Shown here: piece by piece, positions 3,443 through 53,505 of the stretch
How positions within the stretch are numbered: the first letter of the stretch is position 1
Layout of the letters: each line of letters starts with the position of its first letter
Origin: Acidobacteriota bacterium
GTDB taxonomy: Bacteria; Acidobacteriota; Vicinamibacteria; Vicinamibacterales; CAVVIG01
Reading direction: 5' to 3'
NCBI GenBank assembly: GCA_003222395.1
Contig: QHWB01000039.1
Coordinates: 124,001 to 188,000 of the forward strand
DNA: 64,000 nt
Notes under the pieces: generated by a model
Database searches by the model: none
What the model was told of the DNA's origin: nothing
The model's input: only the letters and a program-made list of their open reading frames with translations
Translations under genes and position numbers: made by a program

Positions 3443-3450
3443 AAAAAAAT

Positions 3451-3917
3451 TTCGCAGTGAGCCGTAAGCCGAATTCTGTGCCCGCTGTCGCTCATACGAG
3501 CGACAACGGATGACGACCATTCCTCTAGCGTCGCCATCGCTGGCGACGTCAAGCGACCTACCCGAAGGCGTCGGACGGGCCATCCTTGTTTTCCCCGGCG
3601 CATCGAGCGCCGGGTCGCCTTCCTATTTGGTCTTGCTCCGTGCGGGGTTTTGCCTGCCACCCGTGTTGCCACGGGCGCGGTGCGCTCTTACCGCACCTTT
3701 TCACCCTTACTTCGATCGCGGGCCTGAAAGCCCCGCGCCACCGTGTGGGGCGACCCTTTTAGGGTCGCCATCGGAGCGGTATGTTTTCTGTGCCACTGTC
3801 CTTCGAGTTGCCCCGACCGGGCGTTACCCGGCGCACTGCCCTGCGGAGTTCGGACTTTCCTCCCCTCGGCTCGGCGCTTCGCGCCTCGCTCGGGGCGGTC
3901 GTCTGGCTCACTGCGAA
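3451..3917 (-). ncRNA. rnpB: RNase P RNA, bacterial type A
   Basis: The minus strand holds the conserved RNase P RNA blocks in order: GAGGAAAGTCCGGACTCC near the 5' end, GGCACAGAAAACATACCGC, TAAGGGTGAAAAGGTGCGGT, then GGCAAAACCCC, AGACCAAATAGG and the 3' ACAGAATTCGGCTTACGG. A 13-nt P1 stem (TTCGCAGTGAGCC with GGCTCACTGCGAA) closes the molecule and sets the ends. It is the catalytic RNA that matures the 5' ends of tRNAs. The P12 arm (about 3711-3781) is two adjacent hairpins that match a repeat found elsewhere in the window (9022 and 21611). The gene ends 8 nt before the amidohydrolase start and begins 17 nt after the NtrC-type gene's stop. Confidence 0.97.
3717..3770. repeat. Two-hairpin palindromic repeat (family A) inside rnpB P12
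   Basis: Read on the plus strand it is TCGCGGGCCTGAAAG then CCCCGCGCCAC, followed by TGTGGGGCGACCC and TTTTAGGGTCGCC. The same two half-elements, same order and orientation, occur at 9022-9110 and 21611-21709. In rnpB the gap between the halves is only 2 nt. Confidence 0.8.
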
Positions 3918-9597: not shown

Positions 9598-9604
9598 GAG
9601 ATTG

Positions 9605-9752
9605 CAGATTTATGATTGCTGATTGCTGATTGAATTGCTGATTGAATTGCTGATTGAATTGCTGATTGAATTGCTGATTGATTGCAATTATTACAATTGA
9701 CAATCTATTAATCAGCAATCAATCAACAATCAGCAATCTGAAATCAGCAATC
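9605..9752. repeat. AT-rich inverted array of GATTGCT-type repeats
   Basis: The left arm is repeated ATTGCTGATTGA units (12 bp, with 7-bp subunits); the right arm is the complement, AATCAGCAATCAATCAACAA, repeated with variations. The two arms could form one long hairpin. The stretch is strikingly AT-rich in a GC-rich genome and lies between the polyprenyl synthase stop and the macrodomain start. Confidence 0.85.
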
Positions 9753-16356: not shown

Positions 16357-17025
16357 CTAGAAGAACCCAGCCTCCTTGAAGCTGTAGTACCGCGTTTCGC
16401 CCAGAATCACGTGATCGACGACGTCGATCCCCAGGAGCGCCCCCGCCGCCGCCAGCCGCCGCGTCAGGTTCACGTCGTCGGGACTGGGCGTGGGATCGCC
16501 CGAGGGATGGTTGTGGAAGACGACAATCGCTGCGGCGCCGCCTCGCGTCGCTTCGCGAAACACCTCACGCGGCTCGACGACCAGCGTGTCCGACATACCC
16601 GAAACGATGACCGACGTGCGGAGCACACGGAGCTTCGAATCGAGCAGCGCGATCCCCAGTCGCTCGACGTCGCCCGATCCGAACCGCGGCAGCAGATATT
16701 CTGCCGCGCGCTTCGGATCGTTGATCCGAACGCGCTCGCCCGGCGGCGATGCGAACGCGCGCCGTCCAAGTTCGAGCGCCGCCACGATCTGCGCCGCGTG
16801 CGCGCCGCCGATGCCCGCGATGCGCGTCAACTCGTCGGCGCCCGCGCGCGTCAACCCGTACAATCCACCGTGCGCCGCGAGGAGCTCGTTGGCGAGCGTC
16901 AGCGCCCCCGCTCGCCGCGATCCGTTGCCGATGATGAGGGCAACGAGCTCGTTGTCGCCGAGCGCCACCGGACCGAGACGCCACAGCTTCTCGCGCGGAC
17001 GATCATCGGGCGCAAGGTTCTTCAT
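16357..17025 (-). CDS. radC: RadC family JAB-domain protein
   Basis: The 222-residue protein has an N-terminal helix-hairpin-helix-like region (ELTRIAGIGGAHAAQIVAAL) and a C-terminal JAB/MPN domain with the metal motif HNHPSGDPTPSPDD. RadC was once called a DNA repair protein, but its biochemical role is unsettled. The start MKNLAPDDRPREKLW matches the family. The ATG lies just 8 nt from an AGCTGTC heptamer array, so its translation signals abut repeat DNA. Confidence 0.93.
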   Translation of the reverse strand: MKNLAPDDRPREKLWRLGPVALGDNELVALIIGNGSRRAGALTLANELLAAHGGLYGLTRAGADELTRIAGIGGAHAAQIVAALELGRRAFASPPGERVRINDPKRAAEYLLPRFGSGDVERLGIALLDSKLRVLRTSVIVSGMSDTLVVEPREVFREATRGGAAAIVVFHNHPSGDPTPSPDDVNLTRRLAAAGALLGIDVVDHVILGETRYYSFKEAGFF

Positions 17026-17033
17026 CTTACACG

Positions 17034-17095
17034 CTATCAGCTGTCAGCTGTCAGCTATCAGCTATCAGCTGTCAGCTGTCAGCTGTCAGCTGTCG
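17034..17095. repeat. Heptamer array, left arm (CTGTCAG/CTATCAG)
   Basis: Eight or nine head-to-tail 7-bp units, CTATCAG or CTGTCAG, lie just upstream of radC and overlap the 3' end of the four-helix-bundle gene. The orientation is opposite to the array at 17568-17625. Confidence 0.9.
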
Positions 17096-17543
17096 AGCGT
17101 CCAGCTTTCGGCTCGCGAGCGTCAGCTCTTCGCTCGCGATCTAATGGCGTCTCCTTGTCTTGGATCCGCACGCGGCGGCGTCCAGCGGGTCCGCAGGTCA
17201 GACTTCCGATGAGACCGCCGAGCATTCGTTTGATCTCGACGACACTTGCGAGAATCGTGTCGTGAACGATCTCAGTTATGAACGCCAGATCGAAGCTGAG
17301 GATCGTTTCGCATTCCAATTCACAAGCCGATCCCATCGCCACGTCCAGAAACCTCCTGAACTCCCTATCTCCGCGGCGGCCGCATCCTTCAGCGATATTC
17401 GAACAGATCGACACAGTGGCTCGGCGCATTTGAGCTTTAAGTCCAAACTCTTCGCTTTCCGGAAAATTGATTGTCAGTTGATAGATCGTTTTGGTCAGGC
17501 GCCGCGCCAATTGCCACACGTTGAGATTCCTGAAGTCCTGCAT
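17079..17543 (-). CDS. Four-helix-bundle protein (S23 / 23S rRNA intervening-sequence protein family)
   Basis: The 154-residue protein starts MQDFRNLNVWQLARRL and contains FPESEEFGLKAQMRRATVSI, then CSNIAEGCGRRGDREFRRFL, the hallmark of the S23/four-helix-bundle family. It is related to the Avd accessory protein of diversity-generating retroelements. Such genes usually lie inside 23S rRNA intervening sequences, but here there is no rRNA. The normal family length is about 120; the last 30 or so residues come from flanking sequence and the heptamer array, which supplies the stop. Inverted heptamer arrays lie at both ends of the gene. Function in the family is not well established. Confidence 0.88.
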   Translation of the reverse strand: MQDFRNLNVWQLARRLTKTIYQLTINFPESEEFGLKAQMRRATVSICSNIAEGCGRRGDREFRRFLDVAMGSACELECETILSFDLAFITEIVHDTILASVVEIKRMLGGLIGSLTCGPAGRRRVRIQDKETPLDRERRADAREPKAGRSTADS

Positions 17544-17567
17544 GGTTGCCTCCTCCTCATGCGCGGT

Positions 17568-17625
17568 CGCTGAAAGCTGTCAGCCGTAGACAGCTGACAG
17601 CTGAAAGCTGACAGCTGAAAGCTGT
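17568..17625. repeat. Heptamer array, right arm (GACAGCT/GAAAGCT)
   Basis: Units such as GACAGCT and GAAAGCT repeat in the opposite orientation to 17034-17095, so the two arrays could pair around the four-helix-bundle gene. It ends 12 nt before the lipoprotein start at 17638. Confidence 0.88.
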
Positions 17626-17637
17626 TATGCTGAATCC

Positions 17638-18219
17638 ATGTCCTTGCGCTGCAGGCTGCTGTCTGCGGTCATCGTCGCGGCGGTGACAGCAGCGGCGTGC
17701 GGCGACCCTCCCGACAAAGAGATCCAACAGGCACAAGGTGCGATCGACGCCGCCAAGGCGGCCGGCGCCGATCTGTACGCGCGCGACGAACTGGCCGCCG
17801 CCGAGAAGGCGCTCAAAGACGCGAACACCGCTGTGAACGATCGCGATTACCGTCTCGCCCTCAACAACGCGCTCGACGCGCGCGAACATGCGCAGACCGC
17901 CGCGAAGCAGGCGGCCGATGGCAAGGCGGCGGCGCGCTCGGGTGCCGAGCGCGTGCTGCGCGATGCGGAGATTGCGCTCGCCGAAGCCCGTGCCCGCCTG
18001 AAGACCGCCGAAACCGTGCGCGTCCCGCCGCGCACGCTGAACGACGCGCGCCGCCTGATTGCCGACGGCGACTCTACCGTGCAAAAAGCGCGCGCAGCCT
18101 TCGACCGGGCCGACTACAGCGCCGCCGGCGACATCATCGCCGGCACAACCACGCGATTACTGGCCACCGCGCGCGATCTCGAGACCGCCGCGGTGTCGGG
18201 CGCACGGCGGCGCCGATAG
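17638..18219 (+). CDS. DUF4398-like lipoprotein
   Basis: A 193-residue protein with a lipoprotein signal (MSLRCRLLSAVIVAAVTAAA, then Cys21 followed by GDPPD). The mature part is almost entirely Ala-rich helix with heptad-like spacing: AGADLYARDELAAAEKALKD, then RDYRLALNNALDAREHAQTA. That resembles DUF4398 helical-hairpin proteins, which are outer-membrane or periplasmic lipoproteins of unknown role. It would be anchored by lipidated Cys. The gene is convergent with the dapF-like gene; their stop codons abut (18219/18220). Confidence 0.8.
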   Translation: MSLRCRLLSAVIVAAVTAAACGDPPDKEIQQAQGAIDAAKAAGADLYARDELAAAEKALKDANTAVNDRDYRLALNNALDAREHAQTAAKQAADGKAAARSGAERVLRDAEIALAEARARLKTAETVRVPPRTLNDARRLIADGDSTVQKARAAFDRADYSAAGDIIAGTTTRLLATARDLETAAVSGARRRR

Positions 18220-19834: not shown

Positions 19835-19848
19835 TATAACAGTGCTTT

Positions 19849-19990
19849 TCAGCTTTCAGCTGTCAGCTATCAGCTATCAGCTGTCACCTTTCACCTATCG
19901 GCTTCTCAGCTATCGGCTCTCGGCTGCTTCGTTGACAACCGAGAGCTGACAGCTGACAGCTGATAGCTGATAGCTGATAGCTGATAGCTG
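19849..19990. repeat. Inverted heptamer arrays between divergent genes
   Basis: The left part is AGCTGTCAGCTATC-type units, the right part GACAGCT and GATAGCT units, with a degenerate middle. The whole could fold as a long hairpin. It occupies nearly all of the divergent promoter region between the methyltransferase (start 19834) and glpD (start 20001). Confidence 0.88.
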
Positions 19991-20000
19991 ATCGATTACG

Positions 20001-23850: not shown

Positions 23851-24300
23851 GCTCGCCTGAAAGGCTCGCGCTACCGTGTCCCCCGTCGCTCGCCTGAAAG
23901 GCTCGCGCTACCGTGTCCCTCGTCGCTCGCCTGAAAGGCTCGCGCTACCGTGTCCCCCGTCGCTCGCCTGAAAGGCTCGCGCTACCGTGTCCCCCGTCGC
24001 TCGCCTGAAAGGCTCGCGCTACCGTGTCCCTCGTCGCTCGCCTGAAAGGCTCGCGCTACCGTGTCCCCCGTCGCTCGCCTGAAAGGTTCGCGCTACCGTG
24101 TCCCCCGTCGCTCGCCTGAAAGGCTCGCGCTACCGTGTCCCTCGTCGCTCGCCTAAAAGGCTCGCGCTACCGTGTCCCTCGTCGCGGCGGCGTGTCCCTC
24201 GTCGCGGCGGCGTGTCGGATTCCCGCGACGATCGGTAGCGCGAGCCTTTGAGGCGAGCGAATTCCAGCAGCGAGCCTTTCGGCCGAGCGCCGAATTCGCG
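23851..24300. repeat. 37-bp tandem array of a palindromic repeat (family B), about nine units, plus degenerate ends
   Basis: GCTCGCCTGAAAGGCTCGCG followed by CTACCGTGTCCCYCGTC repeats with exact 37-nt spacing at 23851, 23888, 23925, 23962, 23999, 24036, 24073, 24110 and 24147. Each unit holds the palindrome GCTCGCC/GGCTCGC-like stem. Units differ mostly at one C/T. After 24183 come two copies of a 19-bp sub-unit (GTGTCCCTCGTCGCGGCGGC) and then inverted copies (GTAGCGCGAGCCTTTGAGGC). There are no variable spacers, so it is not CRISPR. Confidence 0.95.
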
Positions 24301-28257: not shown

Positions 28258-28319
28258 TTTCAGCTGTCAGCTATCAGCTATCAGCTATCAGCTGACAGCC
28301 GAGAGCTGACACCTGATAG
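28258..28319. repeat. Inverted heptamer arrays (AGCTATC / GATAGCT types)
   Basis: AGCTGTC and AGCTATC units are followed by the reverse orientation (GACAGCC, GAGAGCT, GACACCT, GATAGCG). This is the same family as at 17034, 17568 and 19849, and it fills the region just upstream of the FAD-subunit start. Confidence 0.85.
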
Positions 28320-28333
28320 CGAATGTGATCCAA

Positions 28334-51925: not shown

Positions 51926-53482
51926 GTGACCCATCCGCGCGCGCTGCGCGGGCCGTCGGCGGTTCCGTTCGCGATCAGCTGGGCGGCGGCGCTCGTCGGC
52001 GCTATCGCCGCGTGGCACTACCACGGGCTCGGCCTCACGCTCAGCCACTACGACGCGCGCGGACATCTGATCGTCGCGCGCCGCATCTTCGACAGCATCA
52101 CGCCGGGATGGCAGCAAATCGGCGCCGTCTGGTTGCCGCTGCCGCATCTGCTCAACGCGATTCCGGTTCAGGTCGATTTCTTCTACCGGACGGGAGCTTC
52201 CGCCGTCGCGATCTCAATCGCCGCGTTCGCCGTCGCGACCGGCGCAATCGCATGGATCGTGCTGAGCCTGACCGGGTCGTCCGGCGCGGCAATTGCCGCG
52301 GCAAGCGTATTCGCGTTGAACCCGAACGTTCTGTATCTGCAATCGACGCCAATGACAGAGCCGTTGCTGATCGCGCTGCTGACAGTTGCGATCGGGCTGT
52401 TGCTCGCGATGGTAGGGGCGGAGCCTGCTCCGCCCGCGGCGCCTGCTCCGCCCGTGGCCGCGGGCCGAGCAAGCTCGGCCCCTGCCGTGACAGGATGCGC
52501 CTTCGCGCTCGCGTGCCTCACTCGCTACGAAGCCTGGCCTGTGACCGCTGTCGCGATTGCGACGACGACATGGATCGATTGGCGCGGCGGTCGGAGATTC
52601 GCCGATGCGTGTCGCGGCACAGGATTGATTGCGATCTACCCTGCGCTGGCGATCGCCGGCTTCGCGATTTTCAGCCGCGTCGTCATCGGTCAGTGGTTCG
52701 TCAGCGGCGACTTCTTCGTCCCCGAGAACAAGGCGCTTGGCGATTCGATGATGGCGCTCAAAGAGGTCGGCTGGGGCGTGCAAATGCTCGGCGGCCGCCT
52801 CCTCGTTCTCATCGGCGCGGCCGGCGCTGCCGTTCTCGCCGCGCGCGGATTCTTCAGACGCCGATCGTCGAGCGCGATCCTGCCGCTCGCGCTGCTCGCG
52901 ATGGCGGCGATTCCATGGGCGGCGTTCGTCGAAGGCCACCCGTTCCGGATCCGCTACATGGTGCCGCTCGTCGCGATCGAAGCGATCGGCGCCGGCATCG
53001 CGGCAGCCTCGTGGCGGCGCGCGCGCCTCGTCGGCTCGCTGGTGGTCCTCGCGCTCGCCGCGTACGAGCTGCGTCCGCTCGATCGGTCGGCGCCAATGGT
53101 CATCGAAGCGCAGTGGGACCGTCCGAATCTCGCGGCGCGCACGCGCGTCACCGATTGCGTGGGACAACCCGGCACGGGACGCAAGATCATGGCGAGCATG
53201 GGCTCGCTCGGTCACTACATGCAGGAAGCATCCGAGTCTGGATTCTCGATCCGCGATTTCCTGCACGAAGGCAACGGCGACATCTGGCTCGCGGCGCTCG
53301 ACGTGCCGCGCTATTACGCCGACTGGATTCTCATCGAGGAAAAAGCGGAAGGCGGCGACATGCTCGCCCGCCGCGCGCGCGAGCGGCCGTCGTTTCTCGA
53401 CGGCTATACGCGTGTGTGCGAAGGGGCGGGCATGGCGTTGTACAAAAGGGACGAGGGCAAAGGGCAAAGGGCACCGGAATAG
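51926..53482 (+). CDS. Polytopic membrane protein, GT39/GT-C-like
   Basis: 518 residues, about 11 membrane segments, from a GTG start. The first loop DARGHLIVARRIFDSITPGW carries the acidic residue of GT39-like enzymes, and IGAVWLPLPHLLNAIPV follows. The peptide AEPAPPAAPAPPVAAGRASS, between a membrane helix and ALACLTRYEAWP, is a translation of a palindromic repeat (52412-52487) in the reading frame. The C-terminal soluble part (after the membrane helices) has FLHEGNGDIWLAALDVPRYY. The role is likely sugar transfer from a polyprenyl-phosphate donor, by similarity of layout. Confidence 0.7.
   Translation: MTHPRALRGPSAVPFAISWAAALVGAIAAWHYHGLGLTLSHYDARGHLIVARRIFDSITPGWQQIGAVWLPLPHLLNAIPVQVDFFYRTGASAVAISIAAFAVATGAIAWIVLSLTGSSGAAIAAASVFALNPNVLYLQSTPMTEPLLIALLTVAIGLLLAMVGAEPAPPAAPAPPVAAGRASSAPAVTGCAFALACLTRYEAWPVTAVAIATTTWIDWRGGRRFADACRGTGLIAIYPALAIAGFAIFSRVVIGQWFVSGDFFVPENKALGDSMMALKEVGWGVQMLGGRLLVLIGAAGAAVLAARGFFRRRSSSAILPLALLAMAAIPWAAFVEGHPFRIRYMVPLVAIEAIGAGIAAASWRRARLVGSLVVLALAAYELRPLDRSAPMVIEAQWDRPNLAARTRVTDCVGQPGTGRKIMASMGSLGHYMQEASESGFSIRDFLHEGNGDIWLAALDVPRYYADWILIEEKAEGGDMLARRARERPSFLDGYTRVCEGAGMALYKRDEGKGQRAPE
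52412..52487. repeat. Palindromic repeat (family D) inside the GT39-like gene
   Basis: GTAGGGGCGGAGCCTGCTCC, a second CCTGCTCCGCCC copy, and GGGCCGAGCAAGCTCGGCCC then CTGCCG. Same boundary sequences as the ligA element at 8223, but longer, with two hairpins. It is translated in frame between membrane helices. Confidence 0.75.
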
Positions 53483-53505
53483 TCGTGCCCTCTGCGCTTT
53501 CAGCG

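Follow-up and report, generated by a model that had tools for sequence, protein, structure and literature searches.

An S23 gene between inverted heptamer arrays: a probable compact mobile element with hairpin ends outside ribosomal RNA

The window analysed here is a stretch of 64,000 nucleotides (G000:C118:124001-188000) from the draft genome of an Acidobacteriota bacterium (7.74 Mb in 118 contigs). Between radC and a gene of the DUF4398 family it carries a gene for a four helix bundle protein of the S23 type (PF05635), enclosed by two arrays of 7-bp repeats in opposite orientation. The locus is composed as follows.

16357..17025, minus strand: radC, downstream neighbour of the S23 gene; its spacer to the DUF4398 gene is the insertion site (profile match and site comparison)
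17033..17094, no strand: left array, the 3' arm relative to S23, (CAGCTRT)n in 8.9 copies (Tandem Repeats Finder, period 7, unit GCTGTCA)
17095..17139, no strand: degenerate inward continuation of the left array (Tandem Repeats Finder and sequence reading)
17079..17543, minus strand: S23/IVP gene, four helix bundle protein of 154 aa (PF05635, E 1.6e-34; TIGR02436)
17550..17559, minus strand: purine run 5' of the S23 ATG, a putative Shine-Dalgarno-like site (read from the sequence)
17569..17624, no strand: right array, 5' arm as seen from S23, units (GACAGCT/GAAAGCT)n in opposite orientation to the left array (Tandem Repeats Finder and pair score)
17638..18219, plus strand: DUF4398 gene, divergent neighbour of S23 (profile match and site comparison)

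The 3'-terminal codons of the S23 gene fall inside the left array, and the right array is called by Tandem Repeats Finder at 17589-17624, or at 17569-17624 with a period of 14. The pair score of the two focal arrays is 68 in the inverted orientation versus 37 in the direct one, in agreement with the opposite orientation reported by a first-pass annotation of this DNA. As RNA, the element is predicted to fold with its arms paired around the S23 gene (minimum free energy -256.9 kcal/mol, z -7.75 against 20 shuffles). The same annotation had likened this layout to the intervening sequences (IVSs) of 23S rRNA, a comparison that holds. In Coxiella, a sporadic 428-nt IVS, called selfish, has an S23 open reading frame (ORF) in the loop of a stem formed by its complementary ends (PMC4990558), and the focal element likewise has stem-forming complementary ends with an S23 ORF inside. 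However, the focal copy lies between DUF4398 and radC rather than in a 23S rRNA helix, and an Rfam scan of the window returned RNase P as its sole match and no rRNA. Unlike the ribosomal IVS, the S23 elements described below occupy spacers between protein genes, are multicopy, end in tandem arrays of 7-9 bp units that vary by copy, and have cargo-less versions.

To what extent such framing arises by chance can be read from the genome itself. S23 loci were scored by locally aligning the 500-bp flank that precedes the gene with the reverse complement of the flank of equal length that follows. Across 464 kb, 7,690 windows, each 315 bp long and flanked by 500 bp on either side, were scored, and the value of 48, the lowest among the six S23 genes of this genome, was reached at two places: the focal locus and C14:168.7 kb, a GC-rich coding stretch without tandem arrays. 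On a coarser grid of 1,538 windows no position reached 48, the focal locus itself being missed, and the five other S23 genes fall outside the scanned 464 kb. Together with the mismatched-pair controls given below, these scans rule out a chance origin of the framing.

The six PF05635 genes retrieved by the family search, located on contigs C118, C14, C25 and C89, are all framed by inverted arrays (scores 48-76). Their framing motifs, read from the sequence, all differ: CAGCTGT, GGGCGGAC-like, AGGGCAG, GATTGCTGATTGA, GGGATTC and GGTAATTG. The motif is therefore not a fixed one, which corrects the first-pass annotation: each S23 copy of this genome has a repeat unit of its own of 7-9 bp. The same annotation named two further arrays of the window as inverted pairs without cargo, and both were recovered at nearly identical limits among the cargo-less hairpins of the window:

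9600..9752, no strand: GATTGCT family, the same motif that frames the S23 gene L004 (Tandem Repeats Finder and pair detector)
19847..19992, no strand: CAGCTRT family, loop of 47 bp (Tandem Repeats Finder and pair detector)
28258..28320, no strand: CAGCTRT family, alignment score 40, below the threshold of the pair detector (read from the sequence)
53442..53500, no strand: small AGGGCAA hairpin AGGGCAAAGGGCAC...GTGCCCTCTGCGC, of the motif that frames the S23 gene L003 (by eye; the pair detector made no call)

With a wider distance limit, 11 inverted array pairs were counted in the 464 kb, the focal S23 locus included. Five of the six S23-framing motifs recur there as cargo-less hairpins, one of them by eye only. 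This recurrence is what would be expected if S23 were a passenger, the hairpins owing their spread to host recombination or to a transposase acting in trans, and the matching arrays serving as portable homology for gene conversion, an explanation that we regard as possible but doubtful and that is weighed below wherever the data bear on it. At L231 (G000:C14 about 262300-263610), a cargo-less hairpin of the GGTAATTG type has one of its arms split by a transposase-like ORF, IS701-like by eye.

The framing extends well beyond this genome. In the family set, 104 matches were found in 27 genomes, of which 74 loci were read and 69 retained after dropping five with short flanks; 56 of these 69 score above 31, a threshold set at the 95th percentile of 600 mismatched pairs, and the medians are 52 for the loci and 23 for mismatched pairs. 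Mismatched pairs taken within the same genome (n=214) also score low (95th percentile 32, maximum 49), and thus the array motif belongs to the locus and not to the genome: the arms of one locus match each other and not those of the remaining S23 loci of that genome. In the phylum set, PF05635 matches occur in 144 of 297 sampled genomes, and 24 of the best 30 loci score above 31. A named set, drawn from genomes of Proteobacteria, Bacteroidota, Bacillota, Planctomycetota, candidate phyla radiation and others, kept 80 loci of 586 relatives (76 after four with short flanks were dropped), 60 of which exceed 27, the 95th percentile of 277 shifted windows, and 48 the 99th. Because its loci were selected through the patterns SIPSNIAE and YGL..Q.RR, this set favours classical S23. 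The 16 low-scoring loci of the named set were considered as candidate classical IVSs, which was rejected: no Rfam match was found in 15 of them plus L155 (L214 left out). In a further set, made up of 20 additional S23 genes of five genomes, 19 score above 31. Summed over the four sets, 159 of 195 loci lie above their control threshold. S23 genes elsewhere without arrays had been named in advance, together with missing co-variation, as the observation that would speak against a mobile unit; instead, matched inverted arrays frame six of six genes in this genome and 159 of the 195 surveyed loci.

The array pairs are also polarized. Among loci above threshold, where the period is mostly 7, the G-rich arm comes first in 48/56, 21/24 and 58/60 cases (family, phylum and named sets), a polarity that reads identically from either strand because the pair is inverted. 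A blind scan for array pairs around 184 loci of these three sets (787 kb) detected 107 pairs that enclose S23, 16 short hairpins with a median loop of 36 bp, and 14 pairs with loops of at least 150 bp. Two of the 14 hold an additional S23 gene (L185 and L212), and nine of the remaining 12 show by eye a reversed polarity, which would be expected when such arms stem from two neighbouring hairpins. Outside the S23 loci, only two G-first pairs with loops of 300-600 bp were found and each holds a further S23 gene (polarity by eye), which argues against hairpins that spread irrespective of S23.

Comparison of chromosomal sites shows both filled and empty states. Of the 27 family genomes, 26 yielded a radC match; 25 were compared (G016 and G026 left out), and after exclusion of G001 and G009, without DUF4398 in reach, and of G020, unreadable, 22 genomes including the focal one remained. 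An S23 gene lies between DUF4398 and radC in three of them (G000, G023 and G015), and the other 19 have a spacer of 17-201 bp without S23. Within one genus, G021 and G022 carry CAAGTATACGTGCGGCTGTAGTACG where G023 has S23 and CAGCT arrays between CAAGTATAC and GTAGTACG. In G018 the corresponding position carries, by eye, a CAGCT-like hairpin that lacks S23. A different S23 gene, whose product is 35% identical to the window protein, precedes radC in G001, which belongs to another genus. At the L110 site, between genes that we take by eye to encode ribosomal protein S7 and EF-G, S23 is present in one of 13 genomes and absent from all 12 sister species, where the spacer is 55-91 bp long. The repeat motif at this site varies between species (by eye). 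Eleven of the 12 empty spacers are predicted to fold with z < -2 (100 shuffles), and the empty hairpin of G124 has by eye the motif AATCGTN, as in the filled copy of G188; both observations would also suit hairpins that exist and move on their own with S23 as an occasional passenger. At the L119 site, G196 and G295 carry two different S23 genes and 10 other genomes have an S23-free gap, G063 being not alignable on the right side.

The clearest filled and empty pairs come from plasmids. A search with one query protein detected S23 in 38 of 72,556 plasmid records, mostly from Nostoc and other cyanobacteria; carriage by phages, searched with one query protein as well, was rejected (0 matches in 50,697 phage records). 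Of 11 plasmid loci examined among the 38, 10 score 29-63 in the inverted orientation versus 15-43 for shifted controls, the high control values coming from L374. The remaining low score, 22 at L372, is due to the extension of its ORF into the array. Compared with the empty plasmids L379, L380 and L381 (97-98% identity, hosts of three genera; three more records of this kind, H70, H72 and H73, are among the matches listed), L372 contains a 423-bp S23 insert flanked by two copies of GTAAT, a sequence present once in the empty plasmids, which hold no array remnant. S23 is the sole annotated gene of the insert. Copies at different sites are related over their whole length and not just over their arms: those of L372 and L389 show homology along L372 1445-1863, against limits of 1446-1868 given by the empty sites, and the copy of L395 aligns over L372 1424-1863. 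These common boundaries in one plasmid family, as well as the empty sites free of arrays, are difficult to reconcile with S23 as a mere passenger of resident hairpins. The L372 element matches 26 plasmid records; in six of them (H92-H97) the match takes in both arms within 170-202 bp, a span that leaves no room for S23, and the two that were read (L393 and L394) are array-only copies with L372 arms. Inserts start at or right after an upstream stop codon in L372, L389, L375, L370 and L110 (as read), which may be explained by selection against gene disruption. Therefore, the first-pass proposal of a small mobile unit that exists in full and in empty form is supported, the polymorphism being direct at the focal, L110 and L372 sites. 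As to the target-site duplications that it suggested looking for, one comparison shows a clear 5-bp repeat and another 3 bp, and no clear one was seen in the others.

These plasmid pairs also bear on the alternative that nothing moves, in which S23 would belong to a resident regulatory cassette and bind its own mRNA hairpin, local slippage would make the arrays and gene loss would produce the patchy distribution. The strong predicted hairpin and the purifying selection on the focal gene (see below) would suit such a cassette, and L383 and L386 resemble decayed copies. Nevertheless, the clean gap of 423 bp, with its 5-bp repeat, that separates plasmids otherwise 97-98% identical, related copies with nearly the same ends at unrelated sites, and a different S23 gene ahead of radC in another genus all argue for movement. 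This explanation is already contradicted by the plasmid pairs, unless these are only assembly artefacts or precise losses, and we consider it very improbable.

In the cyanobacterial plasmids L373, L374 and L377, S23 elements lie in CRISPR operons, in the gap between cas6 and cas4 (two plasmids) or between cas10 and a cmr3 family gene (one plasmid). In L368 (Nostoc edaphicum plasmid pNe_5), the element lies antisense between the beta and alpha genes of ribonucleotide reductase, and the counterpart of this site in Calothrix NIES-4105 is a short spacer without an S23 element. The array-only copy of L394 sits in a stretch resembling IS4 transposase genes.

The S23 protein itself is conserved and constrained. 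The focal copies of G000 and G023 are identical at 87 of 112 residues, with dN 0.14 and a dS of 1.61 that is near saturation (dN/dS 0.087), so that the focal gene evolves under purifying selection. In an alignment of 41 S23 sequences, 12 columns are invariant; W10, P28, E31, G53, R56, S72 and E75 are outside the search patterns, and Q38, N49 and E52 inside them. The AlphaFold2 model of the window protein (mean predicted local distance difference test score 89.7) matches XCC0516 (2gsc) and BT_0352 (2rld) in Foldseek, and more weakly Avd, alone and in the ribonucleoprotein of diversity-generating retroelements (DGRs) (4dwl and 8ub7, E 0.008-0.13). The crystallised relative of the protein is a pentamer. 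By eye, S23 proteins of L002, L048, L051, L072, L097 and L098 have a C-terminal hydrophobic segment resembling a tail anchor, and the ORFs of L091, L093 and L073 enter the arrays, the predicted proteins including repeat-encoded tails.

The likeness to Avd, already pointed out for PF05635 (PMC10053308), raises the idea of a movement through RNA: RNase III would cut the transcript at the stem, the released piece would be joined into another transcript, reverse transcribed and recombined into the genome, with S23 acting like Avd. The IVS layout with S23 in the loop, the strong predicted RNA fold, the fold similarity to Avd (8ub7, E 0.008) and the insertions read beside stop codons of operon genes are consistent with such a route. 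However, the window S23 stays below the cut-offs of the Avd models (21.1 of 40 bits and 21.7 of 80), and of the 144 S23-positive genomes 83 lack a match to the reverse transcriptase (RT) family PF00078, 33 to the Y1 transposase family PF01797, and 23 to both. These absences rest on draft genomes and are individually soft, but G143, a one-contig genome, has 10 S23 genes with no RT and four Y1 matches. In the focal genome, RT matches lie on C8 and C96, that is, on other contigs than the S23 genes. A requirement for RT as a general rule is thus rejected, and the RNA route appears unlikely.

A further comparison is offered by REPIN/RAYT systems, in which a RAYT gene, a Y1 transposase, is framed by hairpins. 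Similarly, S23 elements combine a small framed gene with dispersed cargo-less hairpins of the same repeat family. In contrast, no Y1 transposase domain was found in the window S23 by profile searches, and Y1 genes of related genomes have other repeats. Of 20 Y1_Tnp loci sampled there, 15 have inverted flanks above 50, but these read as longer REP-like (repetitive extragenic palindromic) palindromes and not as heptamers. The ownership of the heptamer arrays by a REPIN/RAYT system was therefore rejected, and a Y1 transposase carrying S23 as a passenger is not favoured by these flanks. In one related genus (L348-L365), inverted REP-like repeats frame many RAYT-like Y1_Tnp genes, so that a system resembling REPIN/RAYT exists alongside the S23 elements.

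From these comparisons, we conclude that most S23 genes outside rRNA are carried by a compact mobile element, similar to an IVS, whose ends are hairpin arrays, and we estimate a probability of roughly 0.7 that the focal feature is one copy of such an element, about 400-600 bp long, with S23 as its only gene and inverted arrays of 7-9 bp repeats as its ends. The paired arrays let the whole element fold into a long hairpin with the S23 gene in the loop, and the element occupies short intergenic spacers, often right after a stop codon. This layout, the locus-specific match of the arms, the cargo-less copies, the filled and empty sites, the common boundaries in one plasmid family and the constraint on the focal protein are observed, whereas how the element moves is inferred. 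The S23 protein may bind this hairpin, as RNA or as single-stranded DNA at a replication fork, and deliver it to a new spacer or into the loop of a resident hairpin, with cutting and joining performed by host replication or repair enzymes. Cargo-less hairpins could then be either targets or derivatives resembling miniature inverted-repeat transposable elements (MITEs). The arms could stay matched because slippage would expand the repeats and hairpin-templated copying would transfer the motif of one arm to the other.

Several observations weigh against this mobile-element interpretation. S23 presence is associated with RT (odds ratio 2.2, p 0.002) and with Y1 transposase genes (odds ratio 2.9, p 3e-5), and therefore the element may be helped in trans; the Y1 association also agrees with S23 being a passenger. 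No catalytic motif was recognised in S23. Thirty-six of the 195 loci are below threshold, some without clear arrays (e.g., L175 and L184), and a direct-orientation match exceeds the threshold in 12 of 69 family loci (>31) and 16 of 76 named loci (>27); in the plasmid locus L374 the direct score of 125 surpasses the inverted one of 62. Seven direct versus three inverted array pairs, the latter all in one genome, were found in 400 kb of sampled S23-positive relatives. In 331 kb of S23-negative genomes no inverted pair was found; for the co-variation of hairpins with S23 that the first-pass annotation anticipated, these data are too sparse to carry weight. L383 (90% identity) has a truncated S23 at the place of the L372 insert, so that the empty plasmids could be precise losses. 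Finally, the clean GTAAT repeat occurs in one filled/empty comparison only, L375/L388 have 3 bp in common, and short stretches are replaced in L389/L390, L395/L396, L370/L384 and L368/L391.

A broader proposal is more tentative: extra-ribosomal S23 might represent a new class of autonomous mobile elements across many phyla, in which a four-helix-bundle protein without a nuclease fold mobilises any hairpin by shape and not by sequence, the heptamer families being their non-autonomous progeny. If so, recognition of shape would explain why the heptamer ends differ between copies and yet match each other, and also the colonisation of sites as diverse as heptamer hairpins already in place, trnL P6b stems and the tips of 23S helices. 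The arrays serve as inverted ends, as in an insertion sequence (IS) or a MITE, and are variable in sequence; unlike an IS, the L372 insert has no recognisable transposase. Like the Avd of DGRs, S23 has the fold but, unlike it, misses the family cut-offs and commonly occurs in genomes without PF00078.

Heptamer repeats have been reported separately in several bacteria. In Xanthomonas, GGGAATC heptamers form spacer arrays in convergent pairs (70 and 75 cases), for which no general mobile-element association is reported (PMC4692102), and heptamer arrays also occupy spacers in Geobacter (PMC2700814). S23 elements resemble these repeats, of the short tandemly repeated repetitive (STRR) type, by their tandem 7-bp units in spacers; in contrast to the Xanthomonas and Geobacter arrays, to which the corresponding passages link no gene, S23 is a recurrent cargo here. 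In the Nostoc trnL intron, the P6b stem consists of 7-nt repeats and has repeatedly been replaced by a stem of another motif (PMC4476775). The stem of S23 elements is likewise built of short repeats with an exchangeable motif, but P6b is one intron locus, and S23 is unmentioned in the relevant parts of that study. In the literature covered, which comprised open-licence and not subscription papers, no account linking S23 genes to heptamer arrays was found, so priority is uncertain. The element would provide a genomic role for PF05635, a family without known function despite its presence in about half of the sampled phylum genomes (144/297), and a candidate owner for heptamer families reported piecemeal in Xanthomonas, Geobacter and cyanobacteria. 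The ribosomal IVS would then appear as one special form of a more widespread element, and the claim that the core of a mobile element may be a protein without a known nuclease fold becomes testable.

Elsewhere in the window, a bacterial RNase P RNA of class A lies at 3450-3914 on the minus strand (Rfam, 266.7 bits), and a non-heptameric 37-bp tandem repeat occupies 23851-24185 (9.1 copies, 97% matches).
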